Assembly (NCBI GenBank): GCA_019509785.1
Contig: JAEKLQ010000064.1
Coordinates: 1-35,414, forward strand
Length of the DNA: 35,414 nt
Reading direction: 5' to 3'
Source: Fibrobacterota bacterium
GTDB taxonomy: Bacteria > Fibrobacterota > Fibrobacteria > UBA11236
Shown here: piece by piece, positions 6,305 through 10,153 of the stretch
Position numbering within the stretch: the stretch's first letter is position 1
Layout: each line of letters begins with the position of its first letter
Made by a program: the position numbers and the translations under genes
The notes under the pieces: generated by a model
Database searches by the model: none
Seen by the model: only the letters and a program-made list of their open reading frames with translations
Told to the model about the DNA's origin: nothing

Positions 6305-8362
6305 TCAATCCTTGCCAGGCATCGCTTCGATGCGGGCCCGGTAGGATCCGGGAGCAAGACGCGCGGGTATCCGTCCTCGGGATTGCCCCACGTCCAGCCG
6401 ATAACGGCCGACTTCCCGGCCACCGAGGTCGAAGATAACCAGATCGACCGCCGACGCGAGCGGGACCCTGGTCGACCAGAACGACGTGCCGCCCGCCAAG
6501 GACAGGCGCACGTCAGGTTCGGAAAGGGCGGGAGCGACGAAGCGGATCGGGGAAGAACCTTTCGCGACAAGGATCACGTTATCTATATGCAAGGTTGACG
6601 CCACGTCCCCGACGTTGAATTGGATCATGCCCGTGGCCCCCGCGGTTACGGTCGTCAGGGCGGTCAGCTCCACCTGGTAATTGGCCTTGGCCGCGGTCAC
6701 GCTGACGTTATTCCCGCTCTGCCAAACCCAATCGCTTGTGGTCAGGCCCACCTGGAGGTCGCGGGGCGAATTGGCCCAGGCGTCGAAGGAAACCACGTAG
6801 GTTGCGCCGGCTTGCAATGGGAAGCCGCCCTGCATCAATTGGACGAACCAGTTCTGCCTACCGGCGGCCGGGATGGTGATATCAGCCTGGCCCGCGGCGT
6901 AGGAGATGGTTCCGGAAGCGCCGCTATCGGTATGTACGTTGAATGTCCAATTCGCGTCCGATGTGAAATCGCCGTTCTTAAGCATGTTGGCTCCCGCCGC
7001 GGGGCGGAAGTTGGCGAGGATGGCGCGATCTTTCATGGCCTTCACCTTGATCGGGTTCACCGTCGCCGCCGCGACCGTGTCCCCGCCCCAGCCTGCGAAT
7101 TCATAGCCGGCGTCGGCCGTGGCGGTGATCGTAACCGTGGCGCCGGTATCCACGCGTCCCACCGGCGTCGCCGCCACCTTGCCGCCCGCCGTGGCCGAGG
7201 CCACCACGGAAAGCTTGCCATCCGAAACGCCGTCGAATTTGACGTCGGCGACGTGGGCACGGGCGAACTTGGCCAAGGAAGGCGAAGCGGTCGCGAAACC
7301 TTTCAGCCAGGTATCGCCGGCATCGGGCTGGTATTGCCAGAACATGCCTCCCGCATAGCCGTTCTTGTAAAGGTTTTCCAGCAAGGTATCGACCGATTCG
7401 GCATCCTGCATTTTACTTGTGGATGCCGTACTCGGGCTCCAGCTGGAAGAGGCGAACTCCCCCACCACCAATGGCTTATCGACGCCCCAGGCGGCCGCGC
7501 CCTTGTGGAAAGGGCTGTTGCCCGTGCCGTTCCAGCCGTAGTAATGGACCATATAGAAGTCGAGGACGCCGTCGGCATCGCCGCCCGCGGCCTTGAGGGC
7601 ATCATCCGTATACCATCCCAGATAGGAAGCCTGGACCGTCCCGGTGGAAACGAGCACGCCCGGAATGGCGCGGTGGATGGCCCCGGCGATGCGGTTGGTG
7701 AATTTCTGGACGTCGGCCTTGGCGATGCGCTGGCTGGTCCAGCCTATGCTTTCCACCATGCCCTCGGGCTCGTTGGCCACTTCCCAGCAAAGCAGATTGG
7801 GATCCTTGCCGATGGCCGTAACCAGGGGTACCACGGCATTATCGATGTAAGCCTTCAAGCCGGCATCCGTGGCCAGCAATTTCTTGTTGTTGTCGAGGTT
7901 GACTCCCGACTGGCCGCTTTGCAGGAAATTGTGGGTCAGCAAGGTAGGTACGATCATCATCTTGTTCGTCTTGGCGATGGCGAGCATCTGCTGGACGTTG
8001 GCGATGGTTTTGGAACCCAGACCGCTCACCAAGCCATCGGCCCCGAACACCGGATCCTTCGATCCGTTGGTCGAAAGCCATACCCGCATGGTATTGCCCC
8101 CGGAATCGGCCACCGCTTTCATGGCGGCCTGGAAGGCCGTGGCGTTCAGAGGCGCATCCCCCACGTCCCCGGCGAAATTGATCCATGCGAGGTTGAATCC
8201 CGCTACGAAAATCTTCTCGCCGGACGGCAGGGTGACGCGGTCCGAAAACGGCATGGCCTGGACCGAGGGGGCGAGTCCAAGAAAAAACGCTACGGAGATC
8301 ACGGACAGGGCGCAAATGCTTTTACGCAACCGGATCGGATCGGTGGATCTATGGGCCTGCAT
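6305..8362 (-). CDS. Secreted GH5 glycoside hydrolase with InlB-like repeat, carbohydrate-binding and sorting domains
   Basis: Secreted hydrolase of 685 residues. A signal peptide (ALSVISVAFFLGLAPSVQA) precedes a GH5 TIM barrel at about residues 38-370: GFNLAWINF, NTMRVWLS, WEVANEPEG with acid/base E198, MVHYYGWNG, and PLVVGEF with nucleophile E302. A divergent InlB B-type repeat follows at about 380-455 (GATVTITATADAGYEFAGWGGD). A CBM4/9- or CBM11-like beta-sandwich lies at about 458-600 (LKNGDFTSDANWTF, WFVQLMQGG, LHIDNVILV). The final 65 residues are a sorting domain (DLVIFDLGGREVG, LAPGSYRARIE). The ATG at 8362 has AGGAG 5 nt upstream. The ATG at 8395 is weaker. The likely substrate is a beta-mannan or beta-glucan, since the GH5 subfamily could not be fixed by eye. 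It would work outside the cell. Confidence 0.88.
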   Translation of the reverse strand: MQAHRSTDPIRLRKSICALSVISVAFFLGLAPSVQAMPFSDRVTLPSGEKIFVAGFNLAWINFAGDVGDAPLNATAFQAAMKAVADSGGNTMRVWLSTNGSKDPVFGADGLVSGLGSKTIANVQQMLAIAKTNKMMIVPTLLTHNFLQSGQSGVNLDNNKKLLATDAGLKAYIDNAVVPLVTAIGKDPNLLCWEVANEPEGMVESIGWTSQRIAKADVQKFTNRIAGAIHRAIPGVLVSTGTVQASYLGWYTDDALKAAGGDADGVLDFYMVHYYGWNGTGNSPFHKGAAAWGVDKPLVVGEFASSSWSPSTASTSKMQDAESVDTLLENLYKNGYAGGMFWQYQPDAGDTWLKGFATASPSLAKFARAHVADVKFDGVSDGKLSVVASATAGGKVAATPVGRVDTGATVTITATADAGYEFAGWGGDTVAAATVNPIKVKAMKDRAILANFRPAAGANMLKNGDFTSDANWTFNVHTDSGASGTISYAAGQADITIPAAGRQNWFVQLMQGGFPLQAGATYVVSFDAWANSPRDLQVGLTTSDWVWQSGNNVSVTAAKANYQVELTALTTVTAGATGMIQFNVGDVASTLHIDNVILVAKGSSPIRFVAPALSEPDVRLSLAGGTSFWSTRVPLASAVDLVIFDLGGREVGRYRLDVGQSRGRIPARLAPGSYRARIEAMPGKD

Positions 8363-8541
8363 GGAATCTCCTGGAACTGTCCGGGGGGTGGGCATTGCCT
8401 CATTTCAGAGGGAAAAACCGGGTTAGGGGTTCAAAAGGGAAGCGGGAATATCGCATTTATCGGTCAAAACCCGCTCTCGCCGTATTGACGGGCGGGCAAT
8501 GCCGATTTCAGTTCCTACGCCGCAATAACCGAAAATCCCCC

Positions 8542-8570
8542 TTGCGGCGGATGCATGCGATCTGTATATT
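8542..8570 (+). promoter_or_regulatory. Sigma-70-like promoter of the SufR-like operon
   Basis: TTGCGG at 8542-8547 and TATATT at 8565-8570 are separated by 17 nt, which places transcription start near 8577 and the first start codon at 8609. The -10 is a 5/6 match to consensus and the -35 only 3/6. The predicted start falls inside the inverted repeat at 8574-8589. Confidence 0.5.
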
Positions 8571-8573
8571 TAT

Positions 8574-8589
8574 CCAACTTAAATGTTGG
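8574..8589. promoter_or_regulatory. Inverted repeat CCAAC-N6-GTTGG, candidate SufR-type operator
   Basis: CCAAC-TTAAAT-GTTGG is perfect over 5 bp per arm. It extends to 8-bp arms with one mismatch (TATCCAAC / GTTGGGTA, 8571-8592). It contains CAAC-N6-GTTG, which I recall as the operator consensus described for cyanobacterial SufR. It overlaps the predicted transcription start of the operon that encodes a SufR-like regulator, so autorepression is the natural reading. Confidence 0.6.
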
Positions 8590-8608
8590 GTATTAACCCG
8601 GAGGTACT

Positions 8609-8950
8609 ATGCTTCGCATCGCCGTTTTCGTTTTCGCCGTCGCCGCCCTAGGGGGATTGGTCCTGGCCGTTCGCCATTTCAAAGGACAGGACCGCCCGTG
8701 GCCCCTGGCCATCCTGCACGGCCTCTTGGGAGCCGCGGGCCTGATCCTGCTGCTCTTGCCGGTATTGACGGGCGGGGTTCCCGCCCTCGCGAAGACGGCC
8801 CTCGCGCTCTTCGTGGCCGCTGCCCTGGGCGGGTTCACCCTCTTCGCCTTCCACCTTCAGAAGAAGCCCCTGCCCTCCTTGGTGGTCATCATCCACGCGG
8901 GCGTGGCCGTAATCGCCTTCATTCTCCTGGCGACGGCGGTCTTCACCTAA
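8609..8950 (+). CDS. Small four-helix membrane protein, unknown function
   Basis: A 113-residue integral membrane protein with four predicted helices at about residues 2-21, 33-53, 58-83 and 88-112. Short basic or polar loops lie between them (RHFKGQDRPWP, HLQKKPLP). The sequence reads like an internal duplication of a two-helix hairpin: AALGGLVLAVRHFK-x(n)-LAILHGLLGAAG is echoed by AALGGFTLFAFHLQK-x(n)-VVIIHAGVAVIA. Each half therefore has a His after the first helix and one at the start of the second (RH/LH and FH/IH), and these could bind haem or metal. GGAGG lies 5 nt before the ATG. It is first in the operon, directly after the CAAC-N6-GTTG element. No family recognised. Confidence 0.75.
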   Translation: MLRIAVFVFAVAALGGLVLAVRHFKGQDRPWPLAILHGLLGAAGLILLLLPVLTGGVPALAKTALALFVAAALGGFTLFAFHLQKKPLPSLVVIIHAGVAVIAFILLATAVFT

Positions 8951-8979
8951 CCGCGCCGCGGTTCGCGTGGATCCGGATC

Positions 8980-9480
8980 ATGAACTCGCCAATCGCATAT
9001 AAGAACGGATCCTTACGAGCCTTCGGCCATCCCATGCACGTCCTGCTCGTGCATTTCCCCTTGGGATTGTGGCCGCTCGTCTTCCCGCTGGAAGTGGCGG
9101 GATGCTTCGGCTGGACCCTGGCATGGCGCCTGGCCTTCTGGATCAACGCCTTCGGGGTCCTGGCCGCTTTGCCTACGGCGGCCACGGGCCTGATCGATCT
9201 GGTGGGGCTGAAGCGGGGTCCCGCGGCGGAACGGACGGCGAATTTGCATATGCTGGCCATGCTCAGCGCCGCGGCGCTGTTCGGCGGCGAGCTTTGTTTC
9301 CATTCTCCCGGCGCGGCGATTCCCCTCCCCAGGGCATTTGTTAATTTGGGATTGACCCTGCTTGGAAGCGCCGTTCTCTCCTGGGGAGGATGGTTGGGGG
9401 GCGAGCTGATCCTCCGCCATGGGGCGGGGCGCAGCGACGAAGGGCCGAGTGGACGCGAAGAAACCGAAATTCGAGGATGA
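8980..9480 (+). CDS. DUF2231-family membrane protein
   Basis: A 166-residue membrane protein matching the DUF2231 pattern: GHPMHVLLVHFPLGLW at about 16-31, four hydrophobic helices, TGLIDL after helix 2, NLHMLAML in helix 3, and WGGWLGGELILRHG at the end of helix 4. The conserved histidines (H17, H20, H25, H90) sit at membrane boundaries, where haem or metal ligands would be expected. The biochemical role of DUF2231 is not established. The ATG at 8980 lies 29 nt after the previous stop. The region before it is only weakly Shine-Dalgarno-like, but upstream in-frame sequence is the shadow of the first gene. The gene is co-directional with both neighbours, and its 3' end overlaps the regulator frame. 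Confidence 0.75.
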   Translation: MNSPIAYKNGSLRAFGHPMHVLLVHFPLGLWPLVFPLEVAGCFGWTLAWRLAFWINAFGVLAALPTAATGLIDLVGLKRGPAAERTANLHMLAMLSAAALFGGELCFHSPGAAIPLPRAFVNLGLTLLGSAVLSWGGWLGGELILRHGAGRSDEGPSGREETEIRG

Positions 9481-10153
9481 CATCCGGATGCGCATCCTGC
9501 GTTTCATGAAAGCGCGAGGCGCGTGCACCATCGGCGAGGCAGCCAAACGCTTGCGGATCACCCACGAAGGCGTGCGCAAACAAATGGCGGTCCTGGAAGC
9601 GAACGGTTCGGTGGCCCGGGAGCCCGGTCAAGGCACGGGAAAACGCGGCCGTCCCGTGGAATCGTATCGCGTCACCCCCACCGGGGATCGTCTCTTTCCC
9701 AAATCCTATGATCGCCTGGCCGCGGACTTGATCACCGGGGTCGCGGCGGCCGGAGGGCCGGTCTTGATCCAAAAGCTGCTGGCGTCCCTGGCCGACATGC
9801 AAGTCGCGGCCTGGGAACCGGTGCTGGCGGGACTTTCCCCGGAAGCCCGCTTGGACCGCCTTAAAGGCCTTTACCTGAAGGACGATCCCTTCATGTCGGT
9901 GGAAAAACGCGACGGGGATCTCATCCTAATCGAACGGAACTGCCCCTTCTTGAACGTGGCGCTTGAGCACCCGGCGCTGTGCAGCTTGAGCGTATCGACA
10001 TTGGAGCGATTGCTGGGGCATCCCGTGATACGCGAAGAGAAATTCCAGTCCGGCCACGGTCGGTGCATGTTCCGCGTCCGGCTGGGAAAGAAATTGCCGG
10101 ACCGGCAATTCCATATGGAAGCCGAGAAGGAAGCGGAGAACCGGGCGGCCTGA
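9419..10153 (+). CDS. SufR-like Fe-S transcriptional regulator (COG2345, ArsR/DeoR-like winged helix)
   Basis: A 244-residue regulator. A winged-helix domain occupies about residues 20-90 (MRILRFMKARGACTIGEAAKRL, HEGVRKQMAVLEANGSVARE, KRGRPVESYRVT). The C-terminal half has cysteines C175 (ERNCPFLNVA), C188 (ALCSLS) and C216 (HGRCMFRV), spaced C-x12-C-x27-C. As I recall, this arrangement holds the Fe-S cluster in SufR proteins. The protein would therefore sense iron, oxygen or redox state and bind the CAAC-N6-GTTG repeat in front of its operon. The start is uncertain. The ATG at 9419 overlaps the DUF2231 gene by 62 nt and lacks a Shine-Dalgarno sequence. A GTG at 9448 and an ATG at 9488, 7 nt after the upstream stop, are alternatives. 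No suf genes are visible nearby. Confidence 0.8.
   Translation: MGRGAATKGRVDAKKPKFEDDIRMRILRFMKARGACTIGEAAKRLRITHEGVRKQMAVLEANGSVAREPGQGTGKRGRPVESYRVTPTGDRLFPKSYDRLAADLITGVAAAGGPVLIQKLLASLADMQVAAWEPVLAGLSPEARLDRLKGLYLKDDPFMSVEKRDGDLILIERNCPFLNVALEHPALCSLSVSTLERLLGHPVIREEKFQSGHGRCMFRVRLGKKLPDRQFHMEAEKEAENRAA

Follow-up and report, generated by a model that had tools for sequence, protein, structure and literature searches.

The operon described here belongs to a regulon that is found across phyla and is uncharacterised, although its sensor is of a known type. Three genes on the forward strand (positions 8609-10153 of the window, i.e. the whole 35,414-nt stretch of Fibrobacterota DNA that was analysed) encode a small membrane protein (P1), a DUF2231 protein and a SufR-like regulator. 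All features are listed in Table 1. We propose that the regulator is an Fe-S repressor which autoregulates its own operon, and that the operon products belong to a membrane/cytochrome redox module; the probability of this reading is put at about 0.7. Most of what is known of this family of Fe-S repressors concerns suf operons and, in Corynebacterium, nitrate respiration. If the proposal is correct, this sensor type would be linked, in distantly related bacteria, to a single membrane module that is uncharacterised, and DUF2231 (PF09990), a family for which we know of no function, would gain a first testable pathway, together with a predicted regulon and a specific DNA site.

Table 1. Coordinates of the operon features in the window and of related loci
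Feature	Location	Strand	Details
P1	8609-8950	+	113 aa, four-helix membrane protein, internally duplicated; AlphaFold pLDDT 96.5
DUF2231 membrane protein	8980-9480	+	166 aa from ATG 8980; PF09990 E 5.5e-19; AlphaFold pLDDT 83
SufR/COG2345-like winged-helix regulator	9419-10153	+	244 aa; best NCBIfam model TIGR02702 SufR, 41.1 bits
Candidate promoter	8542..8570	+	TTGCGG (8542-8547), 17 bp, TATATT (8565-8570); read from sequence
Operator (predicted)	8571..8592	.	TATCCAAC-N6-GTTGGGTA inverted repeat, core CCAAC-N6-GTTGG
Predicted Fe-S ligand cysteines C175, C188, C216	9941..10066	+	codons 9941-9943, 9980-9982, 10064-10066
Diheme cytochrome c gene	L065 1538-2914 (G000:C24)		MauG/DHOR-like kind, sub-threshold Pfam matches
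Actinobacterial DUF2231/P1-like loci	L126 3072-5598; L127 3061-4962		beside divergent regulator, C-x13-C-x29-C
Bacillota regulator-folE loci	L020, L021, L027, L031-L032, L034-L036, L038-L040, L042-L043, L045, L047, L050, L053

Operon layout and the regulator

The original prediction had described an operon free of suf genes, with a small histidine-bearing protein and a DUF2231 protein, and each of these elements was found in its place. The DUF2231 protein passed the PF09990 gathering cut-off over its full length (69 bits versus 26.4). The start of the regulator gene overlaps the end of the DUF2231 gene, with GTG 9449 as a possible later start. The divergent neighbour (6305-8395, reverse strand) encodes a GH5-like cellulase that has a carbohydrate-binding domain; this gene has the intergenic region in common with the operon and is probably unrelated to it.

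The regulator cysteines C175, C188 and C216 are spaced C-x12-C-x27-C, as the original prediction had stated by comparison with SufR. This spacing is identical to that of M. tuberculosis SufR (Rv1460; C203/C216/C244), in which all three cysteines are required for function (PMC6034842). It had also been envisaged that the cysteines might not be conserved among close homologues. All three were present in 44/44 aligned relatives, the conservation of C175 being partly due to selection, as the pattern used to search for relatives included C175 and neither C188 nor C216. The SufR proteins of Synechocystis, Streptomyces avermitilis and M. tuberculosis have the same winged helix and C-terminal cysteine domain; the cyanobacterial protein has the motif C-X12-C-X13-C-X14-C and the operator CAAC-N6-GTTG (PMC8593673), whereas the window regulator lacks the extra cysteine. 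Pfam recognised a generic MarR/HTH_20 domain only, and the score against TIGR02702 fell far short of the SufR equivalog cut-off (41.1 versus 178.8 bits; relatives, 50-99 bits). No linkage to suf genes was found. Judged from its sequence, the regulator is SufR-like by anatomy and not a SufR equivalog: the assignment to the SufR type held for the three-cysteine spacing and the operator, but not for SufR proper. The suf genes were also considered as hidden targets and were rejected, as sufBD of the same genome (G000:C71) carry no CAA-N8-TTG operator.

The cysteines could instead bind zinc or be structural, the regulator sensing a small molecule in the manner of ArsR/MarR/DeoR-type proteins. A fourth cysteine is missing, Pfam recognises the winged helix alone, and acidobacterial and myxococcal relatives have aldehyde dehydrogenase, enoyl-CoA hydratase and shikimate-kinase-like genes nearby, all of which would suit such a sensor. 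However, M. tuberculosis SufR and the Corynebacterium repressor ArnR both bind Fe-S clusters with three ligand cysteines only, and the shared M. tuberculosis spacing and the conservation of the three cysteines make this explanation quite improbable.

A second SufR-like gene with an HCPI..C..C motif is found in the genome of the window (L059; G000:C63, about 69100-69640), where it adjoins an SDR gene, as in genomes G001-G005. In G000 its reading frame seems to be disrupted, the part that is intact being without the N-terminal DNA-binding region.

The inverted repeat and related promoters

The CAAC-N6-GTTG motif was located at positions 8575-8588, within an inverted repeat in which 7/8 arm pairs match. 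Immediately 5' of the repeat is a -10-like box (TATATT), with a weak TTGCGG 17 bp further upstream. The position of the TATATT box places the expected transcription start at about 8576-8578, inside the repeat, and the near-perfect 8-bp-arm repeat over the predicted start was thus confirmed. A standard promoter scan gave no sigma-70 site above threshold, the TTGCGG/TATATT candidate scoring below it. In L015, L025, L030, L092 and L093, too, the repeat comes straight after a -10-like box. Streptomyces SufR binds a CAAC-N6-GTTG repeat over its own -10 box and start (PMC11995493); the same operator, with the regulator controlling its own operon through a repeat that spans the start, is predicted here, and the repeat of the window is best read as a SufR-type operator over the operon's own promoter.

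The frequency of the motif is not evidence. The 14-bp motif was expected 0.31 times per shuffled window (28/100 shuffled windows contained one), and the genome-wide count of exact sites equalled that of the reversed control, without enrichment. The significance of the operator comes from its conservation in orthologous and related promoters and not from its rarity. CCAAC-N6-GTTGG and the three-gene order are kept in both genomes of the same genus that hold the operon (G002 and G004), with the sites just upstream of P1 and with six-base centres that differ from that of the window; protein identities to the operon in G004 and G002 are 65-67%, 45-49% and 49-52%. The repeat had been open to the objection that it might be absent from orthologous operons; the palindrome was found in both orthologous promoters.

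Across phyla, an inverted repeat with the core CAA-N8-TTG was present in 14/14 promoters of the P1/DUF2231/regulator type. Thirteen of these were scored directly, with per-promoter P values of 0 to 0.007 (dinucleotide shuffles); CAA-N8-TTG at any position was expected in 0.6-6% of shuffled promoters. In the fourteenth (L030), CAA-N8-TTG lies immediately 5' of the corrected start. Two promoters from Gammaproteobacteria carry the palindrome TACAAG-N6-CTTGTA, the L023 promoter carries CAAG-N6-CTTG, and the Bacillota promoters carry TTAATCAA...TTGATTAA-like repeats. The CAA-N8-TTG core was fixed by the search, and its own invariance in the base-pair comparison is therefore no evidence. The fourth base pair, next to CAA/TTG, varies between lineages on both sides (C-G, G-C, A-T or T-A), as expected of the site of a dimer. 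A test of upstream regions for CAAC-N6-GTTG had been suggested: the motif was present inside the genus (G002, G004) and not in other phyla, where CAA-N8-TTG was found instead. The exact sequence is thus retained within the genus only, and CAA-N8-TTG is the general rule.

That the palindrome arose by chance, beside a gene order without function, would agree with its background frequency in the genome. The presence of the palindrome in orthologous and in all related promoters, with compensating changes, and the retention of the gene trio over several phyla leave this explanation with very little likelihood. For the Fe-S repressor, the following regulatory logic is probable: the holo-dimer, carrying a [4Fe-4S] cluster, would occupy the inverted repeat that spans the start site and block transcription, and loss or modification of the cluster (by O2, peroxide, NO or iron shortage) would free the promoter.

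Linkage across phyla and further candidate targets

In the regulator scan, P1 and DUF2231 genes adjoined the regulator in FCPU426, one further bacterium, Gammaproteobacteria and Bacillota, in co-directional order in some loci and divergent order in others. DUF2231 neighbours all P1 homologues scoring above 95 bits (14/14). Nine of these homologues were found via the regulator; L092, the other half of L048 in an operon apparently split across contigs (genome G189), was also reached via the regulator, and L093-L096 were found independently, by P1, with an adjacent regulator in two and none in two. P1-like matches from Gammaproteobacteria below 85 bits had no DUF2231 gene nearby and were left out of the count. 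The suggested co-occurrence of COG2345 regulators with DUF2231 is thus recurrent across phyla, and it extends to P1. A literature search on COG4244 and COG2345 returned nothing useful.

P1 was absent from the 299 other Bacilli genomes sampled and is restricted to one genus in its home phylum, so that its distribution is patchy and it is not a core gene. A plasmid search with one gammaproteobacterial P1 query found no P1; the DUF2231 query did reach a P1 homologue in Roseibium. In the regulator tree, the P1-linked members are scattered (7 label changes), on long branches with weak deep support; such a tree gives no grounds for asserting either one origin or repeated transfer.

A second candidate target was found among the exact CCAAC-N6-GTTGG sites of the genome that contains the window (G000). 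Of the four sites, one is that of the operon, two fall within long reading frames and one is in promoter position (G000:C24:141336), 22 nt before the ATG of a gene (G000:C24:141373) whose 458-aa product contains two CxxCH motifs and begins like a lipoprotein. A homologue of this diheme cytochrome c in SAR324 (49% identity, E 7e-153) is encoded directly downstream of a SufR-like regulator, and the gap between the two genes contains a near-palindromic CAAG-N6-CTTT (TTAAACAAG-N6-CTTTTTTAA). The promoter-positioned site and the SAR324 adjacency are two independent lines that link the regulator to the diheme cytochrome, whose gene the repressor probably also controls. Homologues of the cytochrome occur in genomes of SAR324 and Myxococcota in which the regulator is present too. 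Neither G002 nor G004 has the cytochrome, which is therefore not an obligate partner.

In Bacillota, other members of the regulator family precede folE (GTP cyclohydrolase I), usually with CAA-N8-TTG before the regulator; this is a second conserved linkage of the sensor family. P1, DUF2231, regulator and folE genes occur all together in one Paenibacillaceae locus, and a Roseibium plasmid carries P1-DUF2231-folE. As a member of the regulon in Fibrobacteria, folE was rejected, as no folE match was found in the Fibrobacteria genomes; the folE loci read from the other module-bearing genomes showed no convincing site 5' of folE. On a Streptomyces plasmid, DUF2231, P1-like and folE genes are found beside a divergent regulator, and Rhodococcus has the same arrangement without folE. 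Both regulators match the regulator profile weakly (E 4e-9 and 5e-6).

The cysteine spacing of these actinobacterial regulators is exactly that of ArnR, the NO-sensing, O2-insensitive [4Fe-4S] repressor that is released by NO (PMC12343034). The original prediction had not included the diheme cytochrome site, the link to FolE or the ArnR parallel. By analogy, the window regulator would resemble ArnR as a three-cysteine [4Fe-4S] repressor of a respiratory/NO regulon other than suf; the known ArnR targets are narKGHJI and hmp, not DUF2231. The signal could accordingly be NO, with an ArnR-like regulator and a module for defence against NO or nitrosative stress. The spacing shared by ArnR and the homologous actinobacterial modules favours this, as does the Roseibium module, which is located near an Rrf2-family regulator gene, a hemerythrin-domain gene and a cbb3 oxidase. 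We consider it unlikely for the operon of the window, where the regulator has the x12/x27 spacing of SufR and not the x13/x29 of ArnR, and no NO reductase or hmp gene was found in the neighbourhoods of the Fibrobacteria operons.

The membrane proteins and their possible role

P1 consists of a duplicated two-helix unit, as had been suggested: alignment of one half against the other with hhalign gave a probability of 97.9% (E 5.9e-13), which was reached by 0/2000 shuffles. His37 (codon 8717-8719) and His96 (codon 8894-8896) are invariant and take equivalent positions in the two halves, and H82 is nearly invariant. In the DUF2231 protein, four histidines (codons 9028, 9037, 9052 and 9247) are invariant in the alignment. 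P1 resembles cytochrome b561 and small b-heme membrane proteins as a four-helix membrane bundle with paired histidines, but its match to cytochrome b561 (PF03188) is below the Pfam cut-off (16 bits versus 23, E 0.015), and structural matching gave nothing significant. The sub-threshold match was repeated in homologues. Among the small-protein folds nearest to P1 is 4D2, a designed diheme bundle, with weak similarity (probability 0.98, TM about 0.7, E 0.46), and in a Foldseek search of the PDB neither P1 nor DUF2231 had a match reaching E 0.001. With no significant fold match, the case for heme binding depends on the two to four conserved histidines. On plasmids, DUF2231 often has respiratory neighbours, among them genes for oxidase, oxidase assembly, CopD and sorbosone dehydrogenase. 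For P1 and DUF2231, a role in heme or metal redox chemistry is the best reading of these data, and a redox function is plausible at somewhat less than even odds.

The products would then most likely form a membrane redox module, possibly with b-heme, in which P1 and DUF2231 pass electrons from quinol to the periplasmic diheme cytochrome. A wider version of this scheme is tentative and rather doubtful: P1 and DUF2231 might represent a new class of minimal b-heme oxidoreductase in the membrane, carried from phylum to phylum together with Fe-S repressors of the SufR/ArnR type as sensors and tied in some lineages to a second GTP cyclohydrolase I, the quinol electrons delivered to the diheme cytochrome c sustaining respiration or detoxification when Fe-S proteins fail.

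Under the same Fe-S repressor, the membrane pair might instead handle metal or heme (copper or heme delivery, or insertion of the terminal oxidase cofactor) and take no part in electron flow. The Paracoccus DUF2231 gene adjoins CopD-family and cytochrome c oxidase assembly genes beside ctaD, that of Mesorhizobium is two genes from oxidase subunit genes, and a conserved HPxH...H motif is found at a helix end of DUF2231. However, the P1 loci in the stretches read lack oxidase and copper genes (Roseibium excepted), and the site before the diheme cytochrome gene points to redox chemistry, so that metal or heme handling is a less than probable role and is judged unlikely overall.

The relatives of the regulator in Myxococcota and Acidobacteriota (L022, L051, L026, L028, L029, L033 and L037) are without the CAA-N8-TTG repeat. 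Their neighbours are an aldehyde dehydrogenase, an enoyl-CoA hydratase or an HTH-shikimate-kinase-like gene, and these regulators may control genes for aromatic compounds.
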